Assembly (NCBI GenBank): GCA_016217725.1
Contig: JACRHB010000223.1
Coordinates: 1 to 34,185 of the forward strand
Direction of reading: 5' to 3'
From: Nitrospirota bacterium
GTDB lineage: Bacteria; Nitrospirota; Thermodesulfovibrionia; UBA6902
Length of the DNA stretch: 34,185 nt
This document shows, piece after piece, positions 3,764 to 34,054 of this stretch (the stretch's first letter is position 1; every line of letters starts with the position of its first letter). The notes beneath the pieces were generated by a model. The model saw only the letters and a program-made list of their open reading frames with translations. It was not told the origin of the DNA and did no database searches. The position numbers and the translations under genes are program-made.

Positions 3764-3809
3764 ACAACTATATTATTAAAGTATCCTTAATAAGTAAACT
3801 GGTTTTCCC

Positions 3810-3834
3810 AGTAACCCTTCACTGAAGGGTTACT
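3810..3834. repeat. Short hairpin between HEPN gene and livG
   Basis: AGTAACCCTT and its reverse complement are separated by five bases. No T-run follows on either strand, so it is not a clear terminator. Confidence 0.4.
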
Positions 3835-3865
3835 ACCCCGGCAAAGCCGAAGCCAAAACATTTCT

Positions 3866-3996: not shown

Positions 3997-4035
3997 TTTT
4001 CTTTTCATTTTGTACAAAATCTATCTCTTATGGGA

Positions 4036-4800
4036 CTAACCAACCTCCTCCTTCCCGAGATACGCCTCTATAACGTACGGGTTGTTCCGTATCTCGTCAG
4101 GCGTGCCTTCCGCGATCTTTACGCCGTGGTCGAGGACGATGATCCTGTCGGAGATACCCATGACGACCTTCATGTCATGCTCGATTATGATCACCGTTTT
4201 CCCCCATTCCCTGATCCTTTTTATGAGCTCCATCAATTCCCACGTCTCCTGGGGGTTCATGCCTGCCGCCGGCTCATCGAGGAGCAGCAGCTTAGGCTCC
4301 GTTGCAAGCGCCCTGGCGATCTCGAGACGCTTTTGATCTCCGTAAGGAAGGTTCTCTGCAAGTGTATCCGCATAATCCTGAATGCCGGCAAATTCCAGAT
4401 ACTCGAGCGCCTTTGACCTTATCTCGTCTTCTTCTTTGCGAAAAGTATCCGTGCCTAATATCGCAGTGAATAATCCTTCCTTTGAGCGGAGATGCTGACC
4501 GATCATAACGTTCTCCAGAACCGTCATGGAGCCGAACACCCTGATGTTCTGAAATGTCCTTGCAACCCCCTTTGCGGTTATCTCGTGCGCCCTTTTATTC
4601 GTGGCGTCTGCGCCTTCGAATAGCACCCTCCCCCTGGTAGACGAAAGCACCCCGGTAAGGCAGTTGAACAGGGTGGTTTTCCCTGCGCCGTTAGGCCCGA
4701 TGACGCTGAGAATGATCCCCTGCTTCACCTTGAAGCTTACCTCTTCAATCGCCTTTAAGCCCCCGAAGATCTTTGTCAAATCCCTGACTTCAAGTATCAT
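4036..4800 (-). CDS. livG: Branched-chain amino-acid ABC transporter ATP-binding protein LivG
   Basis: ATPase subunit of the Liv importer, 254 aa, normal length. Walker A GPNGAGKTT is at 35-43; TFQNIRVF follows (Q-loop), then the LivG-type signature LPYGDQKRLEIARAL, Walker B LLLLDEP, and IIIEHDM with the switch His. The C-terminus (GTPDEIRNNPYVIEAYLG) is the branched-chain ABC C-terminal motif. It starts with ATG at 4800, about 78 bases after livM. Normally livF follows directly; here a repeat element and two toxin-antitoxin genes lie between. Confidence 0.95.
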   Translation of the reverse strand: MILEVRDLTKIFGGLKAIEEVSFKVKQGIILSVIGPNGAGKTTLFNCLTGVLSSTRGRVLFEGADATNKRAHEITAKGVARTFQNIRVFGSMTVLENVMIGQHLRSKEGLFTAILGTDTFRKEEDEIRSKALEYLEFAGIQDYADTLAENLPYGDQKRLEIARALATEPKLLLLDEPAAGMNPQETWELMELIKRIREWGKTVIIIEHDMKVVMGISDRIIVLDHGVKIAEGTPDEIRNNPYVIEAYLGKEEVG

Positions 4801-4878
4801 AGCTATCCTTAAGTTAAAAGTTGAAAGTTAGAAGTTAACAGTGTAAAAATAATTATTTTATTAATCATCATGTAACTC

Positions 4879-5940
4879 TTAACTCTTTTTTATCAACCCA
4901 TCCGGCCTGAAGATCATCATTAATACAAGACCTACGCCAAGCGCGAGCATCCTGTATAACTGGAAATCTCTCAGCAATTCGGGCAGTAAAACGAGGATCA
5001 GCGAACCTAAAATCACGCCGGGCACGCTGCCGAGACCGCCGAGGATGATCATGCAGACGACAAACACCGATTCCATAAATGTAAAACTCTCAGGCGACAC
5101 AAAGTGCATCTTGCTTGCGAACAATGCGCCTGCAAGCCCCGCCCAAAACGCGCCGAAGGTCAGCGCCATGTATTTGTACTTCCTCGTATTGATCCCCATC
5201 GACTCTGCCGCTGTCTCATCTTCGCGGATTGCAAGCCAGGCCCTGCCCGTCCTTGAGCGTTGAACGCGCTTCACAACAAATGCAGCGATCAAAACAAAAC
5301 CGAAAACAAGATAGTAATAATGAGTCAGCCTGCCGATCTCAAAGCCTAACAAAACCGGGGATGGAATGTTTGAAATCCCGTTTGGCCCGCGGGTCACACT
5401 GTCCCAGTTGTTGAGCACGAGCCTTATTATCTCGCCGAAGCCGAGAGTGACTATTGCAAGATAATCCCCTCTTAATCTCAGCGAAGGGAAGGCAAGCAGG
5501 AAGCCTGCAAGAGAAGTCAAAGGCAAGGTGAGAACAAGGGCGCTCCAGAAATCGAGCCCGAGCGACGTCGTGAGCAGGGCGTTTGAATATGCGCCGATGC
5601 CGTAGAACGCGGCGAAACCGAGATGCAGGAGACCACTGAAGCCTATCACGATATTTACGCCGAGGGCGAGAATAATATAAATGCCTGCGAGTATGGCGAT
5701 ATCGGTATAATAATCTTTCATCAGAAACGGCAGGATGAGCGCTGAAATAATTGCCGCTGTAGTCGCAATTTTTGCATTGAACGGAACAGCGGGCAATTTA
5801 ATCCTGTCGAAGGTATTTGCAAGAAAAATATATAAGCCGTATGACGCACAGATCCCGAGGAATAAATACGCGCCGCCTTTGATCCCCATGAAAGGCATGG
5901 ACAGCAGGGAGAGCCAGAGCATGAAAAGGATTTTCTTCAC
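4879..5940 (-). CDS. livM: Branched-chain amino-acid ABC transporter permease LivM
   Basis: Inner-membrane permease, 353 aa, with about ten hydrophobic segments. The family core is clear: LGVNIVIGFSGLLHLGFAAFYGIGAY, FLLAFPSLRLRGDYLAIVTLGFGEIIRLVLNN, and GRAWLAIREDETAAESMGIN, the EAA-like loop that contacts the ATPases. The N-terminal ~90 residues are an extra hydrophobic region common in LivM. Start is GTG at 5940, in a four-base GTGA overlap with the livH stop and with GGAGG upstream, which indicates translational coupling. LivM pairs with LivH to form the channel. Confidence 0.95.
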   Translation of the reverse strand: MKKILFMLWLSLLSMPFMGIKGGAYLFLGICASYGLYIFLANTFDRIKLPAVPFNAKIATTAAIISALILPFLMKDYYTDIAILAGIYIILALGVNIVIGFSGLLHLGFAAFYGIGAYSNALLTTSLGLDFWSALVLTLPLTSLAGFLLAFPSLRLRGDYLAIVTLGFGEIIRLVLNNWDSVTRGPNGISNIPSPVLLGFEIGRLTHYYYLVFGFVLIAAFVVKRVQRSRTGRAWLAIREDETAAESMGINTRKYKYMALTFGAFWAGLAGALFASKMHFVSPESFTFMESVFVVCMIILGGLGSVPGVILGSLILVLLPELLRDFQLYRMLALGVGLVLMMIFRPDGLIKKS

Positions 5941-6839
5941 GACCTGCCTCCTTCCGTTTTACCTAACAGTCCCGTCGGTTTAATAAGAAGGATCACGATC
6001 AGCACAATGAACGCATATGCATCCTTATATTCACTCGACAGATAACCGGCGCCCAGACTCTCGATAAGCCCGAGCACCAAACCGCCGATCATTGCGCCGG
6101 GAATGCTGCCGATCCCGCCGAGCACGGCAGCGGTAAATGCCTTTATGCCCGCTATATAACCGATGGAATAATTCACAAGTCCGTAATACATGGCGACCAT
6201 CAATCCCGCAACCGCAGCCAATCCGGAGCCGATCACAAACGTAACTGAAATGATCCTGTCTATATTTATTCCAAGCAGCGAAGCCATGACCTTGTCCTGC
6301 GCCGTCGCCCTCATGGCCTTGCCTGTTTTCGTCTTCATGATGAACAGGTGAAGCCCCGCCATAAGCAGGAGCGAGACAATGATAATAAAAAGCTGGAGCG
6401 TCGTCATTGTCACATTGTAAAACTCGATTATCGTGACCGGCAGAACATGCGGGAACACCTTGTCGGTCGCGCCCTGCGTGAGCATGACGTAATTCTGGAG
6501 GAAAATGGAGACCCCGATCGCGCTTATCAACGGATTCAGTCTCGGCGCATTCCTCAGCGGCTTGTAGGCGAGCTTCTCGACGGTAAAGCCGTAGGCCGAG
6601 CAGACAAGGACCGACATGATAAAAGTAAGAAACAGGGAGAGAAACAGACTGTACTGCGTCAGTCCGACTGCCGTGAATATACCGATAAATATAATTCCCA
6701 GATAAGCGCCTATCATGTAAATCTCGCCGTGCGCGAAATTTATCAGCTCCAGTATTCCGTAAACCAGCGTGTACCCCAGCGCAATGAGGGCGTACACCCC
6801 TCCGACCGTCAGACCGTTGATAATCTGCTGGAGAAACAT
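5937..6839 (-). CDS. livH: Branched-chain amino-acid ABC transporter permease LivH
   Basis: Inner-membrane permease, 300 aa, typical LivH length. Motifs: QQIINGLTVGGVYALIALGYTLVYGI at the N-terminus, INFAHGEIYMIGAY, and KTKTGKAMRATAQDKVMASLLGIN, the ATPase-contacting loop. The C-terminus has GGIGSIPGAMIGGLVLG. It is the first gene of the liv cluster in transcription order. No strong ribosome site precedes ATG 6839, and the 70 bp upstream to thiE contain no repeat. A -10-like TATACAAT is visible on the minus strand in that gap, too weak to call a promoter. Confidence 0.95.
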   Translation of the reverse strand: MFLQQIINGLTVGGVYALIALGYTLVYGILELINFAHGEIYMIGAYLGIIFIGIFTAVGLTQYSLFLSLFLTFIMSVLVCSAYGFTVEKLAYKPLRNAPRLNPLISAIGVSIFLQNYVMLTQGATDKVFPHVLPVTIIEFYNVTMTTLQLFIIIVSLLLMAGLHLFIMKTKTGKAMRATAQDKVMASLLGINIDRIISVTFVIGSGLAAVAGLMVAMYYGLVNYSIGYIAGIKAFTAAVLGGIGSIPGAMIGGLVLGLIESLGAGYLSSEYKDAYAFIVLIVILLIKPTGLLGKTEGGRS

Positions 6840-15636: not shown

Positions 15637-15691
15637 AACTCTTAACTCTTGACTCTTGACTCTTAACTCTTAACTCTTAACTCTTAACTCT
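15637..15691. repeat. Tandem heptamer array, unit AACTCTT, nearly eight copies
   Basis: Seven full units plus a partial unit, two of them with GACTCTT. The array ends inside the stop codon of the phosphodiesterase gene. Units of the same kind occur near 4870-4885. Such an array can change length by slippage, but here that would alter only the 3' end of a gene. Confidence 0.8.
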
Positions 15692-17582
15692 ATAGAAGCA
15701 GGGCCTTTCCTTCCATGTCCGGTGCGGACATTCCGAAAGATGATAACACGGTGGGCGCGATATCCATCAGGCCGGGGGCATCATTGTTTATCTTAAAATT
15801 AGTTAACAGTATACCGGGAACGATTGAAGGGTCCATGATGTGGTCGCCGCTCCATTTCTTTAAATTATCCTGGAAAATCTCCGCAGGCGAGCCTCCGACG
15901 GCAGTCTGCCATGACGCCCTGAACCCCTCCTGAAAGCCTACAATAATATCGGGCGCTTGCTCAACCTGACTGCCGGAATATATCCTGCTGTTTCTGTATG
16001 CGCCTTTGAGGGCGGGCTTGCCGTCCCTGGGATCGGTTAATTTAACGAGCTGGTCCGCAATATTATTTGCGACGGATTCGGCTTGCGCTCCGGGCGCAAC
16101 CACCCCGTGTTTCTCTCTCCCTTTAATGTTCAAATAAATGCTTCCGAAGCCGAGTGCGTAAGCCTGTGTATTTTTCCAATCGACATACTGGAAGAGACCG
16201 CCGCCTTCCTTATCGTCTTTGGAGACCTGCCGGGTCAGTTTCATAAAGCCGTTTTGTGCAAGCCAGGAATTCAGATGCACCGCCCTTCTGAAGCTGGCAA
16301 ACCCGTGGTCGGAAAAAACCATGAGCGCCGTGCTCTCATCGACCTGTTTCATTACTTCTCCGAGGATCCCGTCCATCTTTCGGTAATAATCATCAATGAC
16401 ACGGCCGTATTTTTCAGCATATGCTTTATCATAAAGAGGATGCTGCGGGTCCTTCGTGACCCAGAAGATATGCTGTATTCTGTCGGTCGAAAAGAATGCA
16501 GCCGCCAGCAGCCCCTCCTGGAACCTGTTTAATTCATGCCACAGCATCTTTTCCTGTTCGGCGATAATCTCGTCGCACATGGCGATAAAAGCCTCTTCGT
16601 CGGTCCTGCCTTCTTCGAGGGCCTTTGTATCTTCCGGCATTCCAAGAGTGTAGAAAGGTCCCAGCTCATTTGCCAACTCCTGTATATAGCCGTCCGGACT
16701 CGAGATTATAAATGCAGGGTCTTTGGGATTTATCTGCACGGCGCTCATGTAAAGCTCGAATTCAGGATTAATCCGATTAAGATAAAATTTAACGATCCCC
16801 GACGCCGTTCTCATAAGCCCGACTTTGAATTTTACCTCGAGCCATTCACTCCACTCACCCTTGTTGACGATAAAACGCTTCCCGTCAATGTTTATGTCGA
16901 TCTCTGTATCAGAGGAGATATTTATATCGATATCGGCTTTCGCCTCATCTCTTGCCGTCAGCTTTACAATGTTCGGCCCGGGGATATAGGTTTTTATCTT
17001 GCCGCTGCTTTTCTGAACCTTGATGACTTTTTCGAAGCCTTCTTCATTCTTAGAAACGTTTTTAGTGGTATAGAAAGAATATCTGCCGAGCCCCCCTTTT
17101 ATGTCCGGCACGCCAAGCCCTGCGTAAAGCTTAGTCTTATTCTGCTTCGGCTGAAAGGTCATCGGCCATTTCAAAACAGTCGACGGGATGTTGTTGTCGG
17201 AAGTATGATCCCAGAAAGAATTCCCGTTCATAACGGGCAAGAACATCAATTCTCTTTTGCCGAACACATTCTTCGGGTTTACCTTTAAAATGGCAAGCTG
17301 GGGCATATAATCAGTTACCCTGCGGTTTAAAAAATCAAAGACGCCGTGGTACCCCGGATTATTGCCGGTGGCTAGCGAGGCCCAGGCCACGGGGCTTTGC
17401 GCCGGGTTGCTCGTAGCTAAAGGGGAATACGCCCCGGTTTGGCCGAGCCTGGAGAAATTCGGCAGGTCGCCTTGCCGCATCAGCTCCGACAGCACTTTGG
17501 GGTCCAGGCCGTCTATTCCGAGTGTTATGACTTTTTTGAATTTCGGATTACCGGAAGGCTTTACAGGATTTGAGTTTTCCAT
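15690..17582 (-). CDS. Alkaline-phosphatase-superfamily phosphodiesterase / nucleotide pyrophosphatase-like protein
   Basis: A 630-aa protein of the type I phosphodiesterase group (PF01663-like). The metal site and nucleophile are visible: IDGLDP with Asp24, NPAQSPVAWASLATG with Ser63 as probable nucleophile, then STDRIQHIFW, FSDHGFASFRRAVH and MDIAPTVLSSFGM. A large insert at about 180-300 looks like a beta domain. No signal peptide is seen, so cytoplasmic, or exported by an unknown route. The substrate is unknown; related genes often lie in polysaccharide or lipid-modification loci, and here the neighbours are a LamG protein and an O-antigen ligase. ATG 17582 has only a weak ribosome site. 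Confidence 0.85.
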   Translation of the reverse strand: MENSNPVKPSGNPKFKKVITLGIDGLDPKVLSELMRQGDLPNFSRLGQTGAYSPLATSNPAQSPVAWASLATGNNPGYHGVFDFLNRRVTDYMPQLAILKVNPKNVFGKRELMFLPVMNGNSFWDHTSDNNIPSTVLKWPMTFQPKQNKTKLYAGLGVPDIKGGLGRYSFYTTKNVSKNEEGFEKVIKVQKSSGKIKTYIPGPNIVKLTARDEAKADIDINISSDTEIDINIDGKRFIVNKGEWSEWLEVKFKVGLMRTASGIVKFYLNRINPEFELYMSAVQINPKDPAFIISSPDGYIQELANELGPFYTLGMPEDTKALEEGRTDEEAFIAMCDEIIAEQEKMLWHELNRFQEGLLAAAFFSTDRIQHIFWVTKDPQHPLYDKAYAEKYGRVIDDYYRKMDGILGEVMKQVDESTALMVFSDHGFASFRRAVHLNSWLAQNGFMKLTRQVSKDDKEGGGLFQYVDWKNTQAYALGFGSIYLNIKGREKHGVVAPGAQAESVANNIADQLVKLTDPRDGKPALKGAYRNSRIYSGSQVEQAPDIIVGFQEGFRASWQTAVGGSPAEIFQDNLKKWSGDHIMDPSIVPGILLTNFKINNDAPGLMDIAPTVLSSFGMSAPDMEGKALLL

Positions 17583-17691
17583 CTGCTTGCTGTTAATGAT
17601 AAATTTTACGTTAACTGAACTTGCTATGTCAAATAACCGCTAAGAAGTCCGTAAATAAACCCACATCGTTGCAGCACAAACTTTTCGGAAT

Positions 17692-17724
17692 AAAAAAGGG
17701 GGACGAATTCGTAATTCATCCCCC
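17692..17724 (-). terminator. Rho-independent terminator after the LamG gene
   Basis: On the minus strand, a 12-bp stem beginning GGGGGATGAATT (one G-T wobble) with a 3-base loop is followed by six T. It lies 27 bases past the stop of the LamG-repeat gene and is well placed to end its transcript. Confidence 0.85.
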
Positions 17725-17750
17725 TCATCGGTGTTTATTCTTTTATTGAG

Positions 17751-19838
17751 CTAAAACGATTTACCCTCGGTCCAGCCGCCGGTCCAATCTACGTTGTACG
17801 GGCTCATAATAGTTCCTGAAAAACCATATCCCGAGAGGTCATTGGCGGTTTTGTCTTCGCCTTCATTAAAACGCCAGTATCCTTTCAGTTTAGTGATGTC
17901 TATATTGCAATCACCGGTGACCGCAAGCTCCTGATTCATGCATCTCTGAATCTCTGCCTGTGTCCTCGCCACGGTCCAGAATCTGACTTCGTCAACTGCG
18001 CCTTCTAATCTTGTATCGTTACAAAGGCCTTCAAATCCTCTATTGCAGGTATTTGCTTTTACTGTTCCCTCGGACAAAGCTATCATCCCTATGAACAAAT
18101 CATTGCCATCGTCATTAGAGACAAATTGTGAATCCGTGGTGGCGCAATTCTTATATTCTCCGTTGACATAAATATCTATGTGTGGCTTTGTGCCCCTGCC
18201 GTTTGCTTCAACGGTTTCAGTTGCCCAGGAACCGGAGACATTTGTTGCGTACTTGAAGGCGTTGTTGGTTGCATCATAGTAGCTGATATACGCTTTATTG
18301 TCTGAGTCTAACGCAATGGATGTATACTTGCCGACGTCTCCGGTGTTGTCTACCGTGGTTTTGGTCCAATTTGCAGCATTGGTGCAACTTGCGCTGCATG
18401 TTGCATACTTAAGGTAACCGTTGGTATCGTCATAATAGCTGATGTATATCTTATTGGATGAATCTTTCACCGCAGATGCATACTTGCCGACATCTACTCC
18501 GGCGCTGTTGTCAACTTCAGTGAGAGTAGTCGGCTCCGGATTAAGAGTAGAGGGAGTTGTAGTAGCGCCGCCGGTCCTTGTAAACCCGGAAGTAGCCCTG
18601 GCATATTTAAGTATGCCATTGGCATCATAATAACCAATATGAATTCCTGTGCCGGAATAAGTGCTGCCGTACCCCGTCTCACCGAACGCGGGGGATTTCG
18701 AAATTGCTTCTAATGGCATGAGGGATGTATATTGACCAACATCTCCACTGCTTCCTACCGTTGTTTGTGCCCACAAACCGGAGGCGTTTGTCGCATACTT
18801 AAGGTTTCCATTTGTTGCATCATAATAGCTGATATACGCATTTTTGTTTGAGTCTAAGGCAATGGATGTATATTGGCCGACATCCCCTCCGCTGTTATCA
18901 GCGTTTTCTGATTGCCATGACCATACGGCAGGGGTGCCTGTACCTGCATACTTGGCATATTTAAGTATGCCGGCAGCATTATAATAACTGATATACAGCC
19001 TATTATTATCTTCGCCGGATCTTTTCGTAGGTTCTGCGGATATGGATGAATACTTGCCTACATCTCCGCCCTCTGCAACGGCCACAATTGCTCGAGCCCA
19101 TGAACCGGAGGCATTTGTCGCATACTTAAGGGTTTTATTAGTAGGATCATAATAACTGATATATGCCTTATCTGATGAGTCTAAAGCAAGAGCAGGATAG
19201 CTTCCGACGTCAATGTTTTTGCTTATGCTTTCAATTATGGAAGTACCCCATGCGCCTGATGTATTTTTTGCAGCATACTTAAGATGGCCGTTATAATAGG
19301 CGATATGCGGTTTCTTTGAAGAGTCTATCTTTATAGAAGTAGAAAAACTCTCGGCAAACTGACAGGCCCCATGAATATTGCTGTGATCTTCGTTGACAAG
19401 CACGCCCGCGACATGGGTCCATTCGTTTTTTGATAAATCAACGTTTGCTGATACCTTGTAATATACACTGCCTACTTTGACAACAAACCGGGGTTGATTG
19501 TTTTTTACATAAGACGACAAGCCGCCGCTCAAACTAAAGCGTGAGAAAATGCCTCCGTTAAAAATACCGTCTGTTTTTCTCTTTATCCATGCCTCAGCGG
19601 TAAATTCTTTATTATTAATACCGGCGTGGTAAAGTATTTTTGCATCGGAGGCGTACGCTCCGCAGCTGCCGTCGGGAGATTGGCTGCAATCAAGCGCAAA
19701 GCTTCCGGCATTTGCCGCCGGCACCTTTTGCTGCGGGTGATTTCCACAGTTTAAAAATATAAAGCCTGCACATAAAGCTGCGATAGCCGCAGCAAGAAAA
19801 AAAACGGGGTTGCTCTTTCTTTGTCTTGCTATCTTCAT
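17751..19838 (-). CDS. Secreted LamG-domain protein with seven YISYYD repeats inserted in the LamG fold
   Basis: A 695-aa exported protein of unknown function. The N-terminus is basic, then hydrophobic, ending FIFLNC; Cys31 could be lipidated, but the lipobox is atypical (Asn before Cys). A LamG/concanavalin-like domain begins near residue 45 (FTAEAWIKRKTDGIFNGGIFSRF) and runs to EWTHVAGVLVN at about 141. The chain then leaves for seven imperfect repeats of 40-70 residues (about 163-547), each with I(S/A/G)YYD...LKYA and usually GDVGxYTSIALDS. It returns to complete the LamG domain at HIDIYVNGEYK, GAVDEVRFWTVARTQAEIQ and LKGYWRFNEG. Seven repeats suggest a seven-bladed propeller. ATG 19838 has AAGGAGG. 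Adhesion or glycan binding is plausible only by inference. Confidence 0.85.
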   Translation of the reverse strand: MKIARQRKSNPVFFLAAAIAALCAGFIFLNCGNHPQQKVPAANAGSFALDCSQSPDGSCGAYASDAKILYHAGINNKEFTAEAWIKRKTDGIFNGGIFSRFSLSGGLSSYVKNNQPRFVVKVGSVYYKVSANVDLSKNEWTHVAGVLVNEDHSNIHGACQFAESFSTSIKIDSSKKPHIAYYNGHLKYAAKNTSGAWGTSIIESISKNIDVGSYPALALDSSDKAYISYYDPTNKTLKYATNASGSWARAIVAVAEGGDVGKYSSISAEPTKRSGEDNNRLYISYYNAAGILKYAKYAGTGTPAVWSWQSENADNSGGDVGQYTSIALDSNKNAYISYYDATNGNLKYATNASGLWAQTTVGSSGDVGQYTSLMPLEAISKSPAFGETGYGSTYSGTGIHIGYYDANGILKYARATSGFTRTGGATTTPSTLNPEPTTLTEVDNSAGVDVGKYASAVKDSSNKIYISYYDDTNGYLKYATCSASCTNAANWTKTTVDNTGDVGKYTSIALDSDNKAYISYYDATNNAFKYATNVSGSWATETVEANGRGTKPHIDIYVNGEYKNCATTDSQFVSNDDGNDLFIGMIALSEGTVKANTCNRGFEGLCNDTRLEGAVDEVRFWTVARTQAEIQRCMNQELAVTGDCNIDITKLKGYWRFNEGEDKTANDLSGYGFSGTIMSPYNVDWTGGWTEGKSF

Positions 19839-19856
19839 CGGGCCTCCTTAAACATT

Positions 19857-19891
19857 TTTTATAGAAATTTTATAGAAGTCATTTTATAGAA
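19857..19891. repeat. Three direct copies of TTTTATAGAA upstream of the LamG gene
   Basis: Copies at 19857-19866, 19868-19877 and 19882-19891 lie 19-53 bases before the ATG on the minus strand, in the leader or promoter. They could be regulator sites or simply AT-rich repeats. Confidence 0.35.
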
Positions 19892-19978
19892 ATAAACGGC
19901 TAGAATGAGAAATTATAATTTATGACTTATGGAGAAGTCAATAGATACGCTGTTAATTTTTTAAATTCCGTTATTTGA

Positions 19979-22228
19979 TTAATCTATAATTTCCTTCACC
20001 TTTTTTTTAAAATTTACAGGGTCAAGCTCCAGCGCCTTTTCAGCTTCTTTCCGCGCATTATTTCTATCGCCGAGCGCAAGATAGAGCTCCGCAGCGTCAA
20101 AATGGTATTGAGCGCTGCCGGGAGATATCTTTAATATTTTGTCGTAAAATTGAAGCGCGTTCTTATAATCCTTCACCTCTATTGCCGCCTGAGCGCAAAC
20201 CAAAAGCTCGTCAATTTTCAAAAAATATTTTTCGCCTGAAGCAACGCTTCTATCGCGCGACGTTCTGATCTTCCTCACGTTTTCGAGCGCTTCATTTGTT
20301 ATGTCATTTCTTGACGTCATAATTCCGGCTACAGCCAGCTTCGCCTGCACATCATCGTTTCGCGGGTCGATGTCCACCCCCTTCTTCACGGACAAAAAAG
20401 CATTTTCATAGTCTTTTTTCAGAATATAATTATCAGCGAGGGCAAAATAATTCCATGTGTTTTCGGGGCTTATGCTCATAGATTCTTTAATGAGGGCTTC
20501 CGCCTTGCTTATGAACGACGGCTCATAGGCTGCGACGGCATGATACAGATCGACAACTTCCATCCGATATTCCAGGTTATAAAAATCCTCTTCAATAAAT
20601 TTTTTTGCTTCCTCTGCAGACGCCTTTATAAACTCCAGCGCGCCCTCGATCCCAAAGGCTTTAATTCCCAATATTCCACTTGAAATACTGGACATTAATC
20701 GTCTTATCTCCGTATTGCCGAATGTATCAAGAGACAAGGCTTTTTTAAAATCATGCAGCAACGGCAGGAAAGACTTATATTTATTTTCTTTAAAATCGAA
20801 GATCATGCGATTGGTAAGATATGACTCCCGCATGGGCTTATAATGAATGAAATACGCAGCCGATAAAAATACAAATAACGCGAGGAAGGCGGCGCATAAG
20901 GATTTAATCCGACGTCTGTTTAAATTAATGTCGTCCCGGGACGTCGCTTTCCCCGGATCATGGAGGTTGTCAATGTACGCCAACAAACTAAAGAATATCA
21001 AGTAAGAATTGATCGTATCAAAAACAGACAGGTTCTGTACAAGATAAACGCCAAGCGCCGTTATCAGAGTGGCCGCTTCAATTTTTGCAACAGTCCCATT
21101 CTTATATGCTGCCCGGATGAGGTGGATCGCCGCGCCGAAAATCAAGAGGTAAGAAAGCAATCCTGAAATTCCCGCGTTTACCAGCCATTCTAAAAATATA
21201 TTATGCGCCCTATCGAGAAAACTTTTACCGCCGTAAGGGATGGGGCTTACTGTGTATAAACTTATAAAGTTTTCCTGTCCCCATCCCAGGATCGGTCTTT
21301 CCTTAATGCCCGCCCATGCGACCTTCCAGGCTTCAAATCTGGAATGAAGCGACAAATCAATTGTAGCTGTAGCAAACCTGGGTAACAAGCTGTGAAATTC
21401 CGAACCCGGCGGCAGCGGCGGAGCTTTATAAAAAAACAAAATCATGATCGGCACAAGAATTGAAGCTGCAATGACCGATAATGCGATCCCCCGGTACAGC
21501 CTTTCTTGAGATGTTTTCGGTTTGCCGAAGGCATAAAAAGAGCTGAACAATAATGCGCCGAAAAATAATCCCAGAAAAGCGCCCCTTGTAGCCGAATAAT
21601 AAATAGCCGATGTGTTTAATAAGATAGACGCCGCGTAAAAACATCTCAGGCGGAAAGAGCTGGTTGTAAAAAAAAGCTTTAATCCTATAAAAACAGCGAC
21701 CAGCATATAAGCGGCTAAAAAGGACGGATGCCCTATCGTACTGTACTCCCTGAGCTCCCCTCCCTTCAACAATTCATGAAATAAGGCATACGAGCTGACG
21801 CATAGACTCGCAAAAAAGACGACATTAAGGAACAAGGTCCAATCCTTTCGGGTGCTGAGAACGCTCTTGATGATCGCAAAATACAACGTGAGATGAAGAA
21901 TTGTTAAATAGCCCTCCATGCGCTCATAGCTGGACCAGAAGCTTTTAAAAGGGTTTACGCCGAATAAATCAGCCAGTCCCGCGATAAAAGTAAAAATCAA
22001 TATCGCGAGGAATACAGGCGTATTTTTAGGACGGTATTCTTTGTTCAGCGCTATAAGACCGCACCATAAGACCGCTGCAATCTCGAGCAATATCCTGAAA
22101 ACGTAGTTCTTTCCCTCAATGTATGGGAAGATGAATGACATGGATGTATAAAGGGGGGTAAAAGCGATCAAAAAAATAACAATCTTTATCCCCGCAATAT
22201 AAAGCTTATTCAGTTTTTCAGAATTCAT
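19979..22228 (-). CDS. O-antigen ligase family membrane protein with C-terminal TPR repeats
   Basis: A 749-aa inner-membrane protein. The first ~450 residues hold about a dozen hydrophobic segments. The O-antigen ligase/polymerase (Wzy_C) region includes SATRGAFLGLFFGALLFSS, and the large periplasmic loop has GWGQENFI and DRAHNIFLEWLVNAGISGLLSYLLI, matching WaaL/PglL-type proteins. Residues about 580-745 are TPR units (NTWNYFALADNYILKKDYENAF; AQYHFDAAELYLALGDRNNARKEAEKALELDP). Members join glycans to lipid A or to protein, or act in polysaccharide polymerisation; which one applies cannot be decided. No clear ribosome site precedes ATG 22228. It lies in the surface-related group with the LamG and phosphodiesterase genes. 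Confidence 0.88.
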   Translation of the reverse strand: MNSEKLNKLYIAGIKIVIFLIAFTPLYTSMSFIFPYIEGKNYVFRILLEIAAVLWCGLIALNKEYRPKNTPVFLAILIFTFIAGLADLFGVNPFKSFWSSYERMEGYLTILHLTLYFAIIKSVLSTRKDWTLFLNVVFFASLCVSSYALFHELLKGGELREYSTIGHPSFLAAYMLVAVFIGLKLFFTTSSFRLRCFYAASILLNTSAIYYSATRGAFLGLFFGALLFSSFYAFGKPKTSQERLYRGIALSVIAASILVPIMILFFYKAPPLPPGSEFHSLLPRFATATIDLSLHSRFEAWKVAWAGIKERPILGWGQENFISLYTVSPIPYGGKSFLDRAHNIFLEWLVNAGISGLLSYLLIFGAAIHLIRAAYKNGTVAKIEAATLITALGVYLVQNLSVFDTINSYLIFFSLLAYIDNLHDPGKATSRDDINLNRRRIKSLCAAFLALFVFLSAAYFIHYKPMRESYLTNRMIFDFKENKYKSFLPLLHDFKKALSLDTFGNTEIRRLMSSISSGILGIKAFGIEGALEFIKASAEEAKKFIEEDFYNLEYRMEVVDLYHAVAAYEPSFISKAEALIKESMSISPENTWNYFALADNYILKKDYENAFLSVKKGVDIDPRNDDVQAKLAVAGIMTSRNDITNEALENVRKIRTSRDRSVASGEKYFLKIDELLVCAQAAIEVKDYKNALQFYDKILKISPGSAQYHFDAAELYLALGDRNNARKEAEKALELDPVNFKKKVKEIID

Positions 22229-25364: not shown

Positions 25365-25434
25365 TTAACTTGCAGTTTAAAAGCGCTGAGGAAATAATCT
25401 TTCAAAAGCGCTCCTGTTTTTGTATTTATAAAAA

Positions 25435-25492
25435 CGCCCCCAATAAATGAGGGCGCTACCTCAAAATGTAGCGTCGGGGTTTATCCCCGACG
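25435..25492. repeat. REP-like hairpin pair upstream of the RAYT gene
   Basis: CGCCCCC...GAGGGCGCTAC at 25435-25458 and GTAGCGTCGGGG...CCCCGACG at 25468-25492: the same two hairpins as at 13033-13089 but in the opposite order. A further degenerate CGGGATTCAATCACGACG follows near 25506. The ppdK transcript may end in this region, where an AGCGCT pair with a following T-rich stretch also lies at 25383-25423. Confidence 0.85.
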
Positions 25493-25538
25493 AAATATTA
25501 ATAATCGGGATTCAATCACGACGAAAAAGGTTTTTGAT

Positions 25539-26057
25539 ATGAATAGGGGACATGGAAGAAATTCTTGTGATGAATATAAAACATGGGGCAAGAGTCGTTC
25601 CAACAGATTCCCCAACTACGATTACTCAATTGATAACCCAGTCCATTTGGCAATATGTACAAAAGACAAGAAAACAATTTTCAGCGTAGAAAATCATGCA
25701 AAGGTTTTAATTGCCGAATTATTGAAAGCCGTAGATGATCTGAAATTTATAATCCTTTGTTATTGTCTCATGCCCGACCATATTCACATTATTATTTCTC
25801 CCGGCAATTCAGGTCTTCCATTGTCAAAGTTTTTAAATATTTTCAAGGGGCGGACGGCGGCAGTTTTTCGTACAAGCTTTGGCGTAAGCGAATTATGGCA
25901 GCGGTCAGGTTTCGACCATGTGATCAGGGCGGAAGAAGATTTGAAGACAATAATTAAATACATCCTGAATAATCCTGTCAGAAAAGGTATCGCAGAAACA
26001 GCAGAGAGCTACCCCTATAGTAAATGGTTTGAAGAAAAAACGAAAAGTTACCTTTAA
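25539..26057 (+). CDS. REP-associated tyrosine transposase (RAYT, Y1_Tnp family)
   Basis: A 172-aa HUH endonuclease of the IS200-like Y1 family. Motifs: LCYCLMPDHIHIIIS with the HUH pair His81 and His83, and IIKYILNNPVRKG with the catalytic Tyr141. NNPVRKG is the hallmark of RAYTs rather than mobile IS200. RAYTs are single-copy genes that are thought to move short palindromic REP sequences placed around them. Here the gene is bracketed by such palindromes (25435-25492 before, 26062-26243 after). The frame is complete, and ATG 25539 is the only good start, though the ribosome site is weak. Confidence 0.93.
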   Translation: MNRGHGRNSCDEYKTWGKSRSNRFPNYDYSIDNPVHLAICTKDKKTIFSVENHAKVLIAELLKAVDDLKFIILCYCLMPDHIHIIISPGNSGLPLSKFLNIFKGRTAAVFRTSFGVSELWQRSGFDHVIRAEEDLKTIIKYILNNPVRKGIAETAESYPYSKWFEEKTKSYL

Positions 26058-26061
26058 TAAC

Positions 26062-26243
26062 GTAGCGTTGGGGTTTATCCCCAACGTTTCCTTAATCCGG
26101 GGTCATGTATCGCCCGGATTTACTCCCGGCGAAATGAATTGTTTATTGTAGCGTCGGGGTTCATCCCCGACGAAATATAATTAATCAAATCGGGATTTAC
26201 TCCCGACGTTAAATAAAACGCCCCCAATAAATGAGGGCGCTAC
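26062..26243. repeat. Cluster of REP-like hairpins downstream of the RAYT gene
   Basis: Units at 26062-26086 (GTAGCGTTGGGG form), 26148-26172 (GTAGCGTCGGGG form), 26190-26208 (CGGGATTTACTCCCG form) and 26219-26243 (CGCCCCC...GGGCGCTAC form), with another degenerate unit near 26111-26131. Variation is mainly in loop bases and compensated stem pairs, as expected of structure-conserved REPs. Confidence 0.85.
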
Positions 26244-26329
26244 GAGCTTTCCTGCTTGAATTTACCACCCGGCGGCGTTAAGATATTCCATAAATTTAAT
26301 CTGTCTTTTAATCAGAGGGGATGTATTAA

Positions 26330-26524
26330 ATGAAGGTGCGTGATATTATAAAACTGATTGAATCGGATGGTTGGTATCTTGTTGCTACGAAAGGGAGTCA
26401 CAAGCAATATAAACATTCGATAAAGTCAGGCAGGGTAACAATCGCCGGACATCCCAATGATGATTTAGCTCCCGGCACCTTAAACAGTATTTTAAAACAG
26501 GCAAAATTAAAGGGGGTAAAATAA
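26330..26524 (+). CDS. hicA: HicA family mRNA interferase toxin
   Basis: A 64-aa toxin with a double-stranded-RNA-binding-like fold that cuts mRNA. Family features are complete: VRDIIKLIESDGW, then KGSHKQYKH with catalytic His24, then VTIAGHPNDDLAPGTLNSILKQAKL. AGGGG lies about nine bases before ATG 26330. The antitoxin gene follows within three bases but is frameshifted. With an apparently intact toxin, either some antitoxin is still made or the toxin is silent or neutralised by another locus. Confidence 0.93.
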   Translation: MKVRDIIKLIESDGWYLVATKGSHKQYKHSIKSGRVTIAGHPNDDLAPGTLNSILKQAKLKGVK

Positions 26525-26526
26525 AT

Positions 26527-26738
26527 ATGCATCGTTTCCTTATCATCATTGAAAAAGCCAACGGCAACTATTCCGCATATTCGCCTACCTGCCGGGATGC
26601 ATTGCTACAGGCGCTACACGGGAGGAAACAGAATTAAATATGCATGAAGCAATCAAAATGCATATTCAGGGACTGACTGAAGACAATCTGCCGATTCCCG
26701 AATCCACTTCTTTTGCCGAATATATAGCAGTCCCTTAA
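26527..26738 (+). pseudogene. hicB: HicB antitoxin gene with a one-base frameshift
   Basis: ATG 26527 starts MHRFLIIIEKANGNYSAYSP, the usual HicB beginning, then runs out of frame and stops at 26635-26637. The expected continuation (LPGCIATGATREETELNMHE, then AIKMHIQGLTEDN and ending FAEYIAVP) is present in another frame from 26589 to 26738. A single base is missing in the stretch 26584-26592, where the family has Pro-Asp-Leu-Pro-Gly-Cys. The restored protein would be about 70 aa. The rest of the gene looks undamaged, so the change is recent, a base-call error, or bypassed. Confidence 0.88.
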
Positions 26739-26741
26739 AAG

Positions 26742-26831
26742 ATCCTCAGAGCCTTTGCCCCCCCTTACAAGCCGTCAAGGATCGAACTCGGAACAATGGG
26801 CAGTATGCAGCCGGAGGTGTGGGAGAAGTAG
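26742..26831 (+). pseudogene. Short orphan coding remnant
   Basis: An open stretch reads LRAFAPPYKPSRIELGTMGSMQPEVWEK then stop. It has no start codon and no upstream part. It looks like the last ~30 codons of a gene cut off by the hicAB/REP region, perhaps from a mobile element. I do not recognise the family. Confidence 0.3.
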
Positions 26832-26844
26832 AGGTTTTTATAAT

Positions 26845-26905
26845 GTAGCGTCGGGGTTCACCCCCGACGTTTTCCAGAAACGCCCCCAATAAATGGGGGC
26901 GCTAC
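26845..26905. repeat. REP-like hairpin pair before the YwbE gene
   Basis: GTAGCGTCGGGG...CCCCGACG at 26845-26869 and CGCCCCC...GGGGGCGCTAC at 26881-26905, in mirror order to the copy at 25435-25492. It ends 16 bases before the next gene's start. Confidence 0.85.
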
Positions 26906-27846: not shown

Positions 27847-29292
27847 CTAAGCCTTGCAAACCCGGTTGTGCCCGGTTTTCTTAGCTTCATACAGCGCCTT
27901 GTCGGCCCTTGAAATAAAATCTCGCGCGCTTTTCATCCTTCTATCATACTGGCAGATCCCGGCGCTGATGGTAAAACCGACGGTGCGATTTTTTTTAAGC
28001 GGGATTTTGGCCTGTTCGATCGCCGCGCGAAGACGCTCGGCCACCTGCAGCCCGACGTCCATCTTTGTCTCTACCAATATTAAAACAAATTCATCCCCGC
28101 CGAATCTACCGGCGAGGTCGGTGATCCTGATGGTCTCTTTTACTATTACGGCGGATTCCTGTAATACTTTATCGCCCACGACGTGACCGAACGTATCGTT
28201 GATCTTTTTGAAATTATCGATATCGAACATTATCAAAGAAAGCGGCTCCCGGTATCTGTTAGCCCTGTTGATCTCCTCATTAAGCCTCTTATCCAGGCGC
28301 TGCCTGTTCAGCAATCCGGTTAGGCCGTCCGTCTCGGAGATGCGCTCAAGCTCTTTTATCAGCATTTTTCTCTCTTCTTCCATCCGCCTTCTTTCCGAGA
28401 TATCCCTGTCAATCACGAGGATCATGTTCTTTTCTCCGGTCTTTACAAGCGTTGAACTTACATCAACGGGAAAAACCGTTCCGTCTTTCTTTCTGTGCAT
28501 AACCTCCATCTGCAAGCTTCCCCCTGCGAGAAGACGTCTGATGCTCCCGGCGGCCTTCCCGGCAAATTCAGGCGTAGCAAGATCAAAAAGCGACAGGCGC
28601 AGCATCTCCTTTTCGGTATAGCCGTGCATCTTGCACGCGGCTTTATTGGCCGACATGATATTGCCGGCTCCGGGACCCTCGGCCTCGAGCATCAAAATGG
28701 CGTCGCTGGACTGCTCGAACAGCGAACGGTACCGCATCTCGCTCTCATAAAGCTCTCTCTCCATTCTCATGCGCTCGGATATATCGCGGCACGACTCTAT
28801 CATATATGCCACTTCTCCCGTTCTGTCCAATATGGGCGAGGCGACTATCTCGACAAGGATCTTGTTATTCGCGCTGTCATAGTGAGTATGCGTAACCGTA
28901 ACCGGAGACCTGGTTTTTAATATCTTTCTCAGAGGGCATGGGTCTTTTCTCCCGATACAAGGTTTGTCGTTGTGATGCGAGACCTTGTAGCAGAAAAGCC
29001 CGGCTTTGACGGGGTCAATCCCCCCTGCCATCTCCTTTACCATTTTATTGGCAAAGACAATGCGATATTCGCGGTCGATGACGAGCGTGGGATCATAGAT
29101 ATTGTCTATCACGGTTTGAAGATAATCGCGTGAGGTCTCAAGCAGATCCCTCTTTTGAACGGACTCCTTCTGAAACACCTCGAGAGACAGCTCGAGCTCG
29201 TTTATACGCTGCTTCAGACTTAGAATTTCTTCAATAAGCTGAGCCATTCTTTTATCCGTGTAGTTCGCCATCCCTGTCAAAAATTCTAACAT
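27847..29292 (-). CDS. PAS-PAS-GGDEF diguanylate cyclase
   Basis: A cytoplasmic sensor that would make c-di-GMP from GTP. About 481 aa from ATG 29292 (a GTG at 29316 is possible). The order is: a short coiled coil (LIEEILSLKQRINELELSLEVFQ); PAS1 (TVIDNIYDPTLVIDREYRIVFANK); PAS2 (YRSLFEQSSDAILMLEAEG...KMHGYTEKEM); then GGDEF (TDGLTGLLNRQRLD, FDIDNFKKINDTFGH, GRFGGDEF at about 397). The active-site GGDEF is intact, and RITD five residues earlier is a product-inhibition I-site. PAS1 contains a Cys/His cluster, CYKVSHHNDKPC with CPL further on, which may bind metal or sense redox state. No membrane segment is seen. Confidence 0.92.
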   Translation of the reverse strand: MLEFLTGMANYTDKRMAQLIEEILSLKQRINELELSLEVFQKESVQKRDLLETSRDYLQTVIDNIYDPTLVIDREYRIVFANKMVKEMAGGIDPVKAGLFCYKVSHHNDKPCIGRKDPCPLRKILKTRSPVTVTHTHYDSANNKILVEIVASPILDRTGEVAYMIESCRDISERMRMERELYESEMRYRSLFEQSSDAILMLEAEGPGAGNIMSANKAACKMHGYTEKEMLRLSLFDLATPEFAGKAAGSIRRLLAGGSLQMEVMHRKKDGTVFPVDVSSTLVKTGEKNMILVIDRDISERRRMEEERKMLIKELERISETDGLTGLLNRQRLDKRLNEEINRANRYREPLSLIMFDIDNFKKINDTFGHVVGDKVLQESAVIVKETIRITDLAGRFGGDEFVLILVETKMDVGLQVAERLRAAIEQAKIPLKKNRTVGFTISAGICQYDRRMKSARDFISRADKALYEAKKTGHNRVCKA

Positions 29293-29316
29293 TTGATTAA
29301 GAATTCTTACAAGCAC

Positions 29317-29632: not shown

Positions 29633-29713
29633 AAACAGATGTTTATGGACAGACTCTAAATAATTTTTCACATTAACAACTAAACTTATTATTCAATACG
29701 AGGGAGAATGAAA

Positions 29714-32700
29714 ATGAATAAGCGGACGATTTTCAGGTTTTTATTGTCAGCATTAATAATCATCATCTCGGCAGGGCGCGCCGATGCGCTCGACTATCCT
29801 CATACGACCTTAAACAACATCGGGTGCGATTCCTGTCATTTTATCTACGGAGATGAGCCTTCGCTTTTACCCCCGTGGACCAGCCACGTTCCCCTTGACA
29901 TAGACGATACGCAGTTCAATACGCTTTGCTGGAGCTGTCACAATGACCTGGATGCTCCGTACATGAGAACTCATTCAAGCCTCCAGATAGACAACAGCTA
30001 CGGAGACTGGACTGTGGAGTGCAAGGTCTGTCACAACCCTCATTATCAAAGGCAATTCAGGATATACGGAAGCGCAAGCTATCTGTATTCAGGGGCCTCG
30101 ACAAGCGTAAATGAAACAACGATTACAAAGACAGACGCCGGATGGACTGATAATCAGTATCAGGGATTAGTGGTCGTTCCTAACATCTCAAAAAGGGATT
30201 ACAACTATAAAATCATAAGCAATACGGGCGACACGTTGACCGTAGTAGGGCCGATGGATTTGACGAAAGTAAGCTCCGGGAACACCTTTGCTATAGTCTA
30301 TGGAAGGCTGATAAAAGATTCGATGGACCTCAGCAAGATCACTCCTCCGAAGAGCGGCAGCAAGACGACAAGATTTTTCAATTCCACGGGAAGCAAATCC
30401 TTTGCGGACGGAGACGCGACTTATGACGGGGTCTGCGAAGTATGTCATACGCAGACGACGCATTTTAGAAACAATGGCGGAGGGTCTGACCAATTGCATT
30501 CGAATATGGGCTCGCCTGCCGGAACGCGATGCACAAGCTGTCATCAGCATATTAACGGCTTCAGGGGAATGGGCGGAGGAGCGCATTCTACACATGTCCT
30601 GGAAGGGTATGGTCCGCTGCTAACATGCGCGGATTGCCACGGCGCAAATGTTCCCCCGCTGCTCGCGGACGGGCAAAATCTTGCGAATACGACGGTGTGC
30701 AATAACTGCCATTCCGCAAGCGGAGCGGCCATTGCAAAACAATACTGGAGCATTGCAGGGTCTTCCGAAGGTGAAGCAGGCAGTTGGGCAATGGTAGAGA
30801 GCGAAGCCGTCTATTGCGGCAGTTGCCATGATGCAACCCCGGGAAATACAAAGAAGGACGGCACAGGCGATACAGCGCCCAATGTAATGGGAAACGGGGC
30901 CACGTACGGATATTCAATTTCGGGACATGGAAAAGCCACGGGCAGTTACCAGCGGCTTTCCTGGCAGGATACAACTGCGACGGGCAATCCTGCGGCAAAT
31001 AGGCAGTGCAGCGCCTGTCATAATCTTACATCCCAGCATTTCAATAATTCAGATAAGAGACTGAAAACCGGATATGAGAATGACAACAACAACAACTGCA
31101 AGCAGTGTCATGACCCCGGAGCTGCGGCTACAGCCGATCCCCGGTGGTATACGACTTACACAGCCTATGAGAGCTCTGCGCATAAAGCGGTTGGAAATCT
31201 GAAGTGTACAGCCTGCCACGACGTGCACGGAGCCTCAGGCGCGTATCCCGGCATGACTAAATTAAATCAGGAATCTCTCTGCAATCAGGGAAGCTGTCAT
31301 TCAGGAATTGGAGGTCATCCCGGAGTCGGCTCCACGACATTTACGATTAACAGTAAAAACTATACCCTTGAATGTGTATCTTGCCATAATGTGCATCTTG
31401 TAACAGGAACTTATGCGCAGGCTGCCCAGGACAAGAGCCCTGTAACGAAATTTTCCGAGAACACTCTTGTATGGGGTGATGACTGGAATGAAAAAATGGA
31501 CTTCTATGCAGGAAGCGGCACGTATAGAACCCCTATCGGAGAGTCATTCACCGACGCTCAATTGCCTGATTACCCCTCTTTCTGTCTGGACTGCCACGGA
31601 ACAGGAGGCGCCAACCACACTGATTACGAGCCGTCCCCCTACTTCCGTATAACCTGGGACGGCGACGCTCACGGCAGACAATCGGCAAATGAGCCGAATG
31701 GTTACGGAGTTTGTCCTAACTGGTTTGCATGCGGTCTTGCTTCCGGATGGGAGAACGATGATTGTGTCGCAGCCGATAAAAACGATTGCTGGCCCGTTAT
31801 CACGAGAGGAAAAGGAGACGAGCTTTTCTCAAGAAATCCATACAATCATGAAGAAAGAATAGCAGGCGCAAACTTCACACTCTCATGTACGGACTGCCAC
31901 ACGGGGCATGGCTCAGGGACACTGGGCAGACCGAATGTTAACGGCGGCTCATTCAGCTCGATATGGAACACCATGTGCAACAACTGCCACTATTATTACA
32001 GCGACTGGCACGCAGGAATGGCCTGCGGTAACGCCAGTTGTCATGAACAGAATTCCATACACCGTGGTAAAAAGATGTCAGGCTCCGGAGGCACGAGGAC
32101 TTTTAATCCCGGGCTGGTGCTGGATATGAGGTTTGAAAACAATCTGAAGGATTCCGGCACATGGCAGATGGACGGCAAGTGGTATTCCACTGAAGGTTCA
32201 TTTACAACAGGGAAATCGGGACAGGCAGCATTGCTCGGCGAGGATATCGGTGTGCAGGTCGGTACCGAAAACAGTAACTGGTCAACGGACGAAGGATATC
32301 ACGGCACATGGAAATATACGGAGATGAAATACAACACCTCTCTTGAGGCATGGGTCTATCCGACGGACAATGCCAAGAGCGAATATACGATTTTCAATAA
32401 GCATGTCGGCGTCAGCAACAACGGCAGTTATACTTTCACGCTCAAGAAGATCAACGGCACATTACGGGCCGTCTTCAACATGGCGGCGGATAATAACGGG
32501 GTTGCACAGGACGGCAGGGCGGGAGTGCGCGGCGCCTATAGTTCAGTCGCGGCGCCGCTGAACAAATGGACGCATGTTGCGGCGACGTTCGACAAAAACG
32601 GTCCGAACAGAAATCCAGCCGATCCTTCTGTCGGAAGGATAAGGATATATGTAAACGGGGAGGATGTGACGACCAGCGATTCCTCGGGCAACAATATGCA

Positions 32701-34054
32701 GCCCGGAGTAAACGAAACATCTATATACGCCTTTTCTGAAAACAGCGGATGGAACGAGGCAGGTGTCTGTTATGCTGATTCCTGGTGTGCGTCTGAATTT
32801 TCGATCGGCGGATTCGACTGGGAGGCGACAAACTTCATCGGCAGGATAGACGAAGCAAGGGTCTGGAATATAACAAAAGACGCTACATATTTCTCGTCTT
32901 ACGATTCACAGGCAGGCCCATACATCAGCCATGTCGAAGGGCTGATAGGAAGCAACCAGCTCACGGTCAGGTTCTCCGAAGGGGTTTATACGAACACAGG
33001 TTCATCGGGGGCATTAGTTCCTGCAGACTTTGTGTTGACGGATACAGGCGGAAACAATCCAAGGTCCATAACCGGAGTTACACATACGGCAGGCTCATCC
33101 ACGGCAGTGATTACCATGAGCGCTCCGCTCAATGTTGCAGACGTAAATGCGGATACTCTATCAGCCGCAGGCAACGCGATCTATGACAACTACAATCTTG
33201 CGGCAGGGACAGAGGCAGTGACAATAGGGCTGTCGTCACAGTGTCCGACGTCGCCGGTGAGCATGCAGCTTAACGAGGTTTCGGGCAGCACATATGTTAT
33301 GGATACGCAGAGTATCCTCTATGGCGCGGTTTACGGCGGCGCAGATGCATTAACAGGCAGCGCATATTCAGGCGGCGGCGATGGAAGCGGCAGGTATATA
33401 ATGTTTGACTATAATACGTCATGCCTGCAGGCATCCACGGCCATGACCGTTGAGGCGCGCATTAAACCGACAGGGCTGTCAACCGTGACCGGAGACACTC
33501 AATATGTCAGACGTATCCTGGCGAGAGACGGCAGCGGCAATTACCAGATCTCAGTCTGGAGAAACAACACATGGAACAACCCCACAACCGATACCTACAA
33601 TGCCCCTGACGGTCAAGCCTCAATTGCCCTTTGGATATACGTTGCCGATGCGCACGGCGGCAATGTATGGAAACCTGTATTAACCAACTATCAGGGGGCG
33701 AAGACCGGCTCTGAGAATGATTGTCCTATCGTATCCGACCACTGGTATCAGGTAAAGGCGGTATGGAATTCGAATAAACCGGGAGGCGCGCCGGGGCAAT
33801 TCTTTACACCTGCTGACGTGTATATCGATGACCAGGGCACGGACGGCGCCGGCGCAGGCGAAAACTGGTCGGGTTATATTAACTGTACGGATACAGACCA
33901 ATCGCTGAAGTTCGATGCTGTAAAATTCTATACGGCAGACGAGATTAAACCGGCAAACGGGAACTTTGCCGTCGGCGCCAACAGAGGCAATCCTGCTAAC
34001 AACCTCTTTAACGGCCTGATCGACTGGATAACCTGGAAGGACAGCGTTGATTAA
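29714..34054 (+). CDS. Exported multiheme c-type cytochrome fused to two LamG-like domains
   Basis: A 1446-aa exported protein. A signal peptide (MNKR, hydrophobic, cleavage after ADA) is followed by a cytochrome part at about 38-776 with 15 CXXCH motifs (first Cys38) and two CX4CH motifs (CNQGSCH and CGNASCH), up to 17 hemes. Several further His and NPH/DVH/NVH words could be distal ligands. A small non-heme beta insert lies near 125-195. After the hemes come a LamG domain (about 798-1060: SLEAWVYPT, WTHVAATFDK, GRIDEARVWN), an Ig-like domain (about 1070-1172, QLTVRFSEGVY) and a second LamG-like domain (about 1190-1446). ATG 29714 is favoured because GGGAG is seven bases before it; ATG 29708 is too close. 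A role in periplasmic or surface electron transfer is inferred; partners are not in the window. Confidence 0.92.
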   Translation: MNKRTIFRFLLSALIIIISAGRADALDYPHTTLNNIGCDSCHFIYGDEPSLLPPWTSHVPLDIDDTQFNTLCWSCHNDLDAPYMRTHSSLQIDNSYGDWTVECKVCHNPHYQRQFRIYGSASYLYSGASTSVNETTITKTDAGWTDNQYQGLVVVPNISKRDYNYKIISNTGDTLTVVGPMDLTKVSSGNTFAIVYGRLIKDSMDLSKITPPKSGSKTTRFFNSTGSKSFADGDATYDGVCEVCHTQTTHFRNNGGGSDQLHSNMGSPAGTRCTSCHQHINGFRGMGGGAHSTHVLEGYGPLLTCADCHGANVPPLLADGQNLANTTVCNNCHSASGAAIAKQYWSIAGSSEGEAGSWAMVESEAVYCGSCHDATPGNTKKDGTGDTAPNVMGNGATYGYSISGHGKATGSYQRLSWQDTTATGNPAANRQCSACHNLTSQHFNNSDKRLKTGYENDNNNNCKQCHDPGAAATADPRWYTTYTAYESSAHKAVGNLKCTACHDVHGASGAYPGMTKLNQESLCNQGSCHSGIGGHPGVGSTTFTINSKNYTLECVSCHNVHLVTGTYAQAAQDKSPVTKFSENTLVWGDDWNEKMDFYAGSGTYRTPIGESFTDAQLPDYPSFCLDCHGTGGANHTDYEPSPYFRITWDGDAHGRQSANEPNGYGVCPNWFACGLASGWENDDCVAADKNDCWPVITRGKGDELFSRNPYNHEERIAGANFTLSCTDCHTGHGSGTLGRPNVNGGSFSSIWNTMCNNCHYYYSDWHAGMACGNASCHEQNSIHRGKKMSGSGGTRTFNPGLVLDMRFENNLKDSGTWQMDGKWYSTEGSFTTGKSGQAALLGEDIGVQVGTENSNWSTDEGYHGTWKYTEMKYNTSLEAWVYPTDNAKSEYTIFNKHVGVSNNGSYTFTLKKINGTLRAVFNMAADNNGVAQDGRAGVRGAYSSVAAPLNKWTHVAATFDKNGPNRNPADPSVGRIRIYVNGEDVTTSDSSGNNMQPGVNETSIYAFSENSGWNEAGVCYADSWCASEFSIGGFDWEATNFIGRIDEARVWNITKDATYFSSYDSQAGPYISHVEGLIGSNQLTVRFSEGVYTNTGSSGALVPADFVLTDTGGNNPRSITGVTHTAGSSTAVITMSAPLNVADVNADTLSAAGNAIYDNYNLAAGTEAVTIGLSSQCPTSPVSMQLNEVSGSTYVMDTQSILYGAVYGGADALTGSAYSGGGDGSGRYIMFDYNTSCLQASTAMTVEARIKPTGLSTVTGDTQYVRRILARDGSGNYQISVWRNNTWNNPTTDTYNAPDGQASIALWIYVADAHGGNVWKPVLTNYQGAKTGSENDCPIVSDHWYQVKAVWNSNKPGGAPGQFFTPADVYIDDQGTDGAGAGENWSGYINCTDTDQSLKFDAVKFYTADEIKPANGNFAVGANRGNPANNLFNGLIDWITWKDSVD

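Follow-up and report, generated by a model that had tools for sequence, protein, structure and literature searches.

A 17-heme cytochrome with a LamG-containing tail, a member of a family of giant Nitrospirota cytochromes

The cytochrome gene and its surroundings

The window analysed here is a stretch of 34,185 nucleotides from a Nitrospirota genome (2.77 Mb in 225 contigs, 93% complete), and near its end lies a gene for a large multiheme cytochrome with a heme-free C-terminal tail (Table 1). The open reading frame, 29708-34054, is uninterrupted and complete including its stop codon, and the ATG 6 bases inside it matches the start of the paralogs (MNKR...) equally well or better. A Sec-type signal was read by eye from the sequence; no lipobox or other sorting signal was seen in the protein, and no porin gene adjoins its gene. 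The first-pass annotation had described one exported chain with 15 CXXCH and 2 CX4CH motifs, a description borne out by the intact reading frame, the visible Sec-type signal and a shuffle test, in which CXXCH arose by chance 0.046 times on average and at most 2 times in 2000 shuffles of the cytochrome, against 15 observed.

Table 1. Features of the cytochrome gene and its divergent neighbour, with positions in the window
Feature	Positions	Strand	Residues	Remarks
PAS-PAS-GGDEF diguanylate cyclase, divergent neighbour	27847..29316	-		
17-heme cytochrome with LamG/Ig/LamG-like tail	29714..34054	+	1446-1448 aa	ATG at 29708 or 29714
Sec-type signal peptide ending in ADA	29714..29788	+		read by eye
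N-terminal head module, hemes 1-6	29789..30667	+	about 28-320	core (residues 24-295) common to many Nitrospirota megacytochromes
17 heme-binding motifs	29825..32044	+	40-779	motif count; conservation in orthologs
Small, heme-free beta domain separating heme 3 from heme 4	30080..30322	+	125-205	
CX4CH motif CNQGSCH	31280..31300	+	525-531	CXXCH in several orthologs
Four conserved non-heme cysteines	31712..31789	+	669, 675, 686, 694	conservation 0.89-1.0
CX4CH motif CGNASCH	32024..32044	+	773-779	CX4CH in 8 of 9 aligned sequences
LamG1	32096..32905	+	797-1066	Pfam PF13385; weak PDB profile match to NanA CBM40 (4c1w); Foldseek
Ig-like segment	32906..33232	+	1067-1175	repeated in some orthologs, e.g. 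L224
C-terminal LamG-like beta domain	33233..34051	+	1176-1448	four invariant cysteines

It is hardly conceivable that the gene is an artefact, whether of chimeric assembly or of chance motifs. The contig does end only 131 bases past the cytochrome stop codon, but the motif count is far beyond chance, and the C152 and C223 copies show the join between heme half and tail as well, as do other genera (here and below, C denotes contigs of the window genome, L loci and G genomes). Since the same join recurs in other copies of the same genome and in independent genomes, an assembly error that fused two genes is ruled out and the gene is taken as intact. Separately, an exact 27-base repeat lies near both contig ends (2237-2263 and 34133-34159), its second copy 79 bases past the cytochrome stop codon; this is a dispersed repeat, which may have caused the assembly break.

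Three of the cytochrome copies in this genome adjoin c-di-GMP genes (GGDEF or PilZ), and a two-component system adjoins several orthologs. The second LamG protein reported nearby was found at 17751-19838 (695 aa, without hemes); it stands in a row with genes for a phosphodiesterase and a Wzy/O-antigen ligase-TPR protein (15690-22228), possibly a surface-polysaccharide locus. The window also holds a REP/transposase element (25425-26905), in which repeated palindrome-like units flank the gene for a REP-associated tyrosine transposase (25539-26057; above the cut-off of NCBIfam NF047646), and a HEPN and nucleotidyltransferase (MNT-like) pair (3078-3763) that interrupts an operon for a branched-chain amino acid ABC transporter (902-6839).

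The heme-binding half

Profile searches with the window cytochrome gave c3/c7/Mtr-type heme families over cut-off in Pfam and a doubled-CXXCH match in NCBIfam, where the DmsE/MtrA-type decaheme model TIGR03508 stayed below threshold (50.1 bits, curated cut-off 192.2). Among orthologs with 47-57% head identity the 17 heme sites are broadly conserved; the exceptions are in L054, where one site reads CX3CH and another is without its His. Besides the 17 motif His, 19 non-motif His are conserved at 0.75 or more in the orthologs, which amounts to about one candidate distal ligand per heme. Because of these conserved sites and further conserved His, 17 bis-His hemes are plausible in the window cytochrome, and the His pattern would suit bis-His electron transfer rather than an open catalytic site.

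The first-pass annotation had also supposed that the rarer CX4CH sites may need a dedicated heme lyase, a proposal for which the comparison gives no support. Site 525 is CX4CH in five and CXXCH in four of the nine aligned sequences, and because it alternates in this way among orthologs, no dedicated lyase is required to account for it. At site 773 the one sequence that departs from CX4CH has a spacing one residue longer. In addition, CX4CH makes up 17% of the heme motifs in the wider family. A CX4CH family from Geobacter, PF09698, exists in Pfam already; it resembles the present one in mixing CX4CH and CXXCH motifs and is matched by the relative L070; the window protein itself has no PF09698 match in Pfam. 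As for cytochrome c maturation genes, which the first-pass annotation had proposed to look for elsewhere in the genome, three ResB/CcsA-like pairs were found, with CcsA identified by Pfam and ResB by position and size only.

The structure model of the heme half has a pLDDT of 32 and is unusable outside the small beta domain that follows heme 3, which is the sole part of the N-terminal half modelled with confidence and has no Pfam match. For searches with the head module, its core (residues 24-295), spanning hemes 1-5, was used.

The heme-free tail

Some 670 residues follow the heme motifs, for which two LamG domains separated by an Ig-like segment had been proposed. LamG1 matches Laminin_G_3 (PF13385) at 51.9 bits against a curated cut-off of 27.6, with the best stretch at residues 876-997. 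The second domain fares differently: its strand and motif order is LamG-like, while the C-terminal 273 aa of three orthologs have no Pfam match even at E<=5, the profile comparison with LamG1 (hhalign) is not significant, and a PDB search gave no LamG support. In the AlphaFold2 model of the tail (mean pLDDT 62) the C-terminal domain is a beta-sandwich and may therefore be LamG-like; the tail would thus contain one established LamG domain and possibly a second. Pfam does not match the Ig-like segment of the window protein itself, but the C152 paralog has the unit twice, with SWM_repeat over cut-off and Big_5 below cut-off in Pfam, and a homolog in G455 gives several further SWM_repeat matches.

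When the whole tail model was compared by Foldseek, which does not tell apart the domain responsible, the best domain-sized matches were LamG, pentraxin and CBM40 binding domains (PAPP-A, PTX3 and NanA CBM40). A relationship to botulinum neurotoxins, which ranked high in the same search, was rejected, as these matches have 9-12% identity and mostly large rmsd over several domains; they are taken to reflect no more than a common jelly-roll lectin fold.

Copies in the genome and the wider family

In a family-by-family search of the genome, three or more further large copies of the cytochrome were found, along with remnants. The C152 copy is full (1540 aa, 15+2 heme motifs), two copies on C223 are both cut by contig ends, and C107 encodes a truncated copy of 344 aa. 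Remnants lie on C102 and directly upstream of the C152 copy, where a decayed cytochrome head (L007:5851-6271) is found between an NHL/BACON/FG-GAP gene and the intact gene. Identity between C187 and C223 is 93% for the heads (86% at fourfold sites) and 65% for the tails, which suggests gene conversion or a recent duplication of the head.

The Nitrospirota are a phylum mostly known from uncultured genomes, and the relatives of the cytochrome that carry names are Nitrospirae MAGs; one of them, locus L051, is apparently the same sequence as L225 from G458, which belongs to the same family as the window, and this assigns the window to the Nitrospirota. The first-pass annotation had proposed a search for the same domain order in this phylum, among others; within the Nitrospirota, several other genera and families have the same architecture, and of 230 genomes of the class, 13, from 10 genera, encode this type of tail. 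Nine further species of the window's genus were examined and all lack a gene with this tail, and the gene is therefore regarded as accessory. The head alone is more widespread, being present in 46 of the 396 Nitrospirota genomes sampled, in many families and more than one class, and a scan of 85k species with two 8-residue patterns returned Nitrospirota records only. No plasmid relatives of the cytochrome were found.

Seventy-four members of the head family were examined. Chains not cut by the end of a stretch contain from 6 to 55 heme motifs, the largest number being seen in L174:1535-8614 (40 CXXCH and 15 CX4CH in one chain of 2360 aa). Heme-free tails of more than 300 aa are present in 21 of the 74, or about a quarter, and across the family the tails include LamG, beta-helix, Calx-beta, Big_5, fn3, kelch and GEVED domains. 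Secreted NHL/BACON/FG-GAP propeller homologs are encoded upstream in 30 of the 68 members with a visible upstream open reading frame, nearly always 64 bases away or less. These proteins constitute an unnamed, widespread family of giant Nitrospirota cytochromes with a frequent propeller partner gene, and the placement of the window protein as a tail-swapped member of this family, a more general finding than the first-pass annotation had seen, is sound.

Conflicting histories of head and tail

The head of the window protein is 52%, 48% and 44% identical to those of its relatives in G326, G252 and G439, while the tails are 84%, 83% and 81% identical, respectively. The congeners G252 and G347 show the reverse, with heads 82% but tails 64% identical. 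In AU tests the tail data reject the head tree (p about 5e-8) and the head data reject the tail tree (p about 5e-5), a conflict (p<1e-4) from which it follows that tails have been swapped between lineages.

Tail identity to other genera and families (80-84%) exceeds that of biotin carboxylase between the same genomes (72-75%), and tail fourfold sites are 41-49% identical to these relatives, near saturation; together, these values indicate purifying selection on the tail. A recent transfer of the tail was considered and rejected on the same near-saturation, from which it follows that the exchange is old, or that constraint is strong.

Proposed function and alternatives

The best reading, to which we give a probability of roughly 55%, is that of a docked extracellular electron-transfer cytochrome with an exchangeable tail, which would dock it on its target, a polymer or a surface. 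Once exported by the Sec route, the protein would bind 17 bis-histidine c-hemes in its N-terminal 750 residues and electrons would pass along this chain, while the tail (LamG1, Ig-like spacer and LamG-like end) would serve as a docking module on an extracellular polymer, surface or partner. The docked relay might deliver electrons outward from a porin-cytochrome conduit, or take them up, and within the family the heme head would stay constant while the heme-free tails can be exchanged. Heme loading, outer-membrane export, ligand binding and electron direction are here what we infer from sequence. The idea of a heme wire with its own attachment module, as put forward in the first-pass annotation, agrees with the anatomy of the protein, the conserved His, the conservation and exchange of the tail and the cytochrome-rich genome, whereas its extracellular location, its ligand and electron transfer itself are parts that we infer. 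The tails of relatives, being extracellular-type modules, count for docking; against it, LamG folds may instead be purely structural or mediate assembly.

As to the conduit and the genome at large, the MtrB/PioB porin model TIGR03509 had no match in the window genome, nor in the control genomes. At several loci of the genome, multiheme cytochromes are encoded together with NHL, PPIase and barrel-like proteins; one of these is C137, where the order is NHL, a 5-heme cytochrome, a 662-aa protein ending in Phe (a putative barrel), NHL and an 11-heme cytochrome. A further cluster (L108:644-13749) encodes a PPIase, cytochromes with 26, 16, 6, 8 and 7 heme motifs and a 754-aa protein ending in Phe that has no Pfam match. 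dsrA is over cut-off in the genome, which makes the organism a dissimilatory sulfur organism.

Recognition of a partner cell in direct interspecies electron transfer, with the partner changed by exchange of the tail, would be a special case of docking and is a doubtful one. It would account for the strong conflict between head and tail histories and for the patchy distribution (13 of 230 class genomes), and the fibronectin domains of OetF have been proposed to act in partner recognition or matrix binding (PMC10553843); the same pattern would nevertheless result if tails were exchanged to suit different mineral, matrix or polysaccharide targets. It is less probable still that the protein is a subunit of an extracellular cytochrome filament (nanowire), its heme domains stacked end to end and the LamG/Ig tail decorating or capping the filament. 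The many conserved, predicted bis-His hemes would fit, and the NHL propeller genes beside many relatives (30/68) recall those beside OmcE-like and Uet cytochromes (PMC12016550, PMC10734462), but a PDB profile search gave no match to OmcS, OmcE or OmcZ, and the very large size and the range of 6 to 55 hemes across the family are unlike a fixed repeating subunit. A periplasmic electron store or relay, the tail of which would anchor to peptidoglycan or to the inner face of the outer membrane, appears equally improbable; a Sec signal is the only one visible, with no outer-membrane sorting signal seen, but relatives carry adhesin-type tails of great length (as much as about 2000 aa), the G326 ortholog adjoins a T2SS operon, and the window genome encodes two T2SS pseudopilins.

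Relation to known systems and significance

The fusion type is not wholly new, since cytochrome-adhesin domain fusions have already been described. OetF, from an extracellular electron-transfer cluster of syntrophic sulfate-reducing ANME partners, is a multiheme cytochrome with fibronectin domains (PMC10553843), and by domain architecture both proteins are multiheme cytochromes fused to adhesin-type domains; they differ in that OetF belongs to another phylum and has fibronectin domains in place of LamG/Ig. In the literature collection searched, no paper joined a multiheme cytochrome with LamG or with concanavalin A-like domains. In the Uet undecaheme porin-cytochrome pathway, multiheme cytochromes are encoded beside NHL propellers (PMC10734462), and NHL-linked cytochrome clusters are known from Desulfovibrio ferrophilus and Geoalkalibacter (PMC9769857, PMC12016550). 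The C137 locus resembles Uet clusters by content only (NHL, putative barrel and 11-heme cytochrome), whereas the window cytochrome gene is without a porin neighbour. Relative to the MtrC/MtrF-type outer-surface decahemes there is a local match (PF22113, 49.7 bits against a cut-off of 30) covering part of the Mtr domain model, but the window protein has 17 hemes, is far longer, carries a LamG tail and shows no lipobox.

Mineral respiration and interspecies electron transfer both pose the unsolved question of how cells bring extracellular cytochromes to the correct surface or partner. With relay and attachment in one chain, tails that are exchanged and orthologs that differ in their tails, this question becomes directly testable by tail comparison. 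More tentatively than the docked relay itself, we suggest that the constant-head, variable-tail giant cytochromes of the Nitrospirota may be re-aimed by recombination near the junction of heme half and tail, and that the upstream propeller may be a common assembly or docking partner. If so, tails would move between heads and between species, and thereby direct the relay to new polymers, minerals or partner cells.
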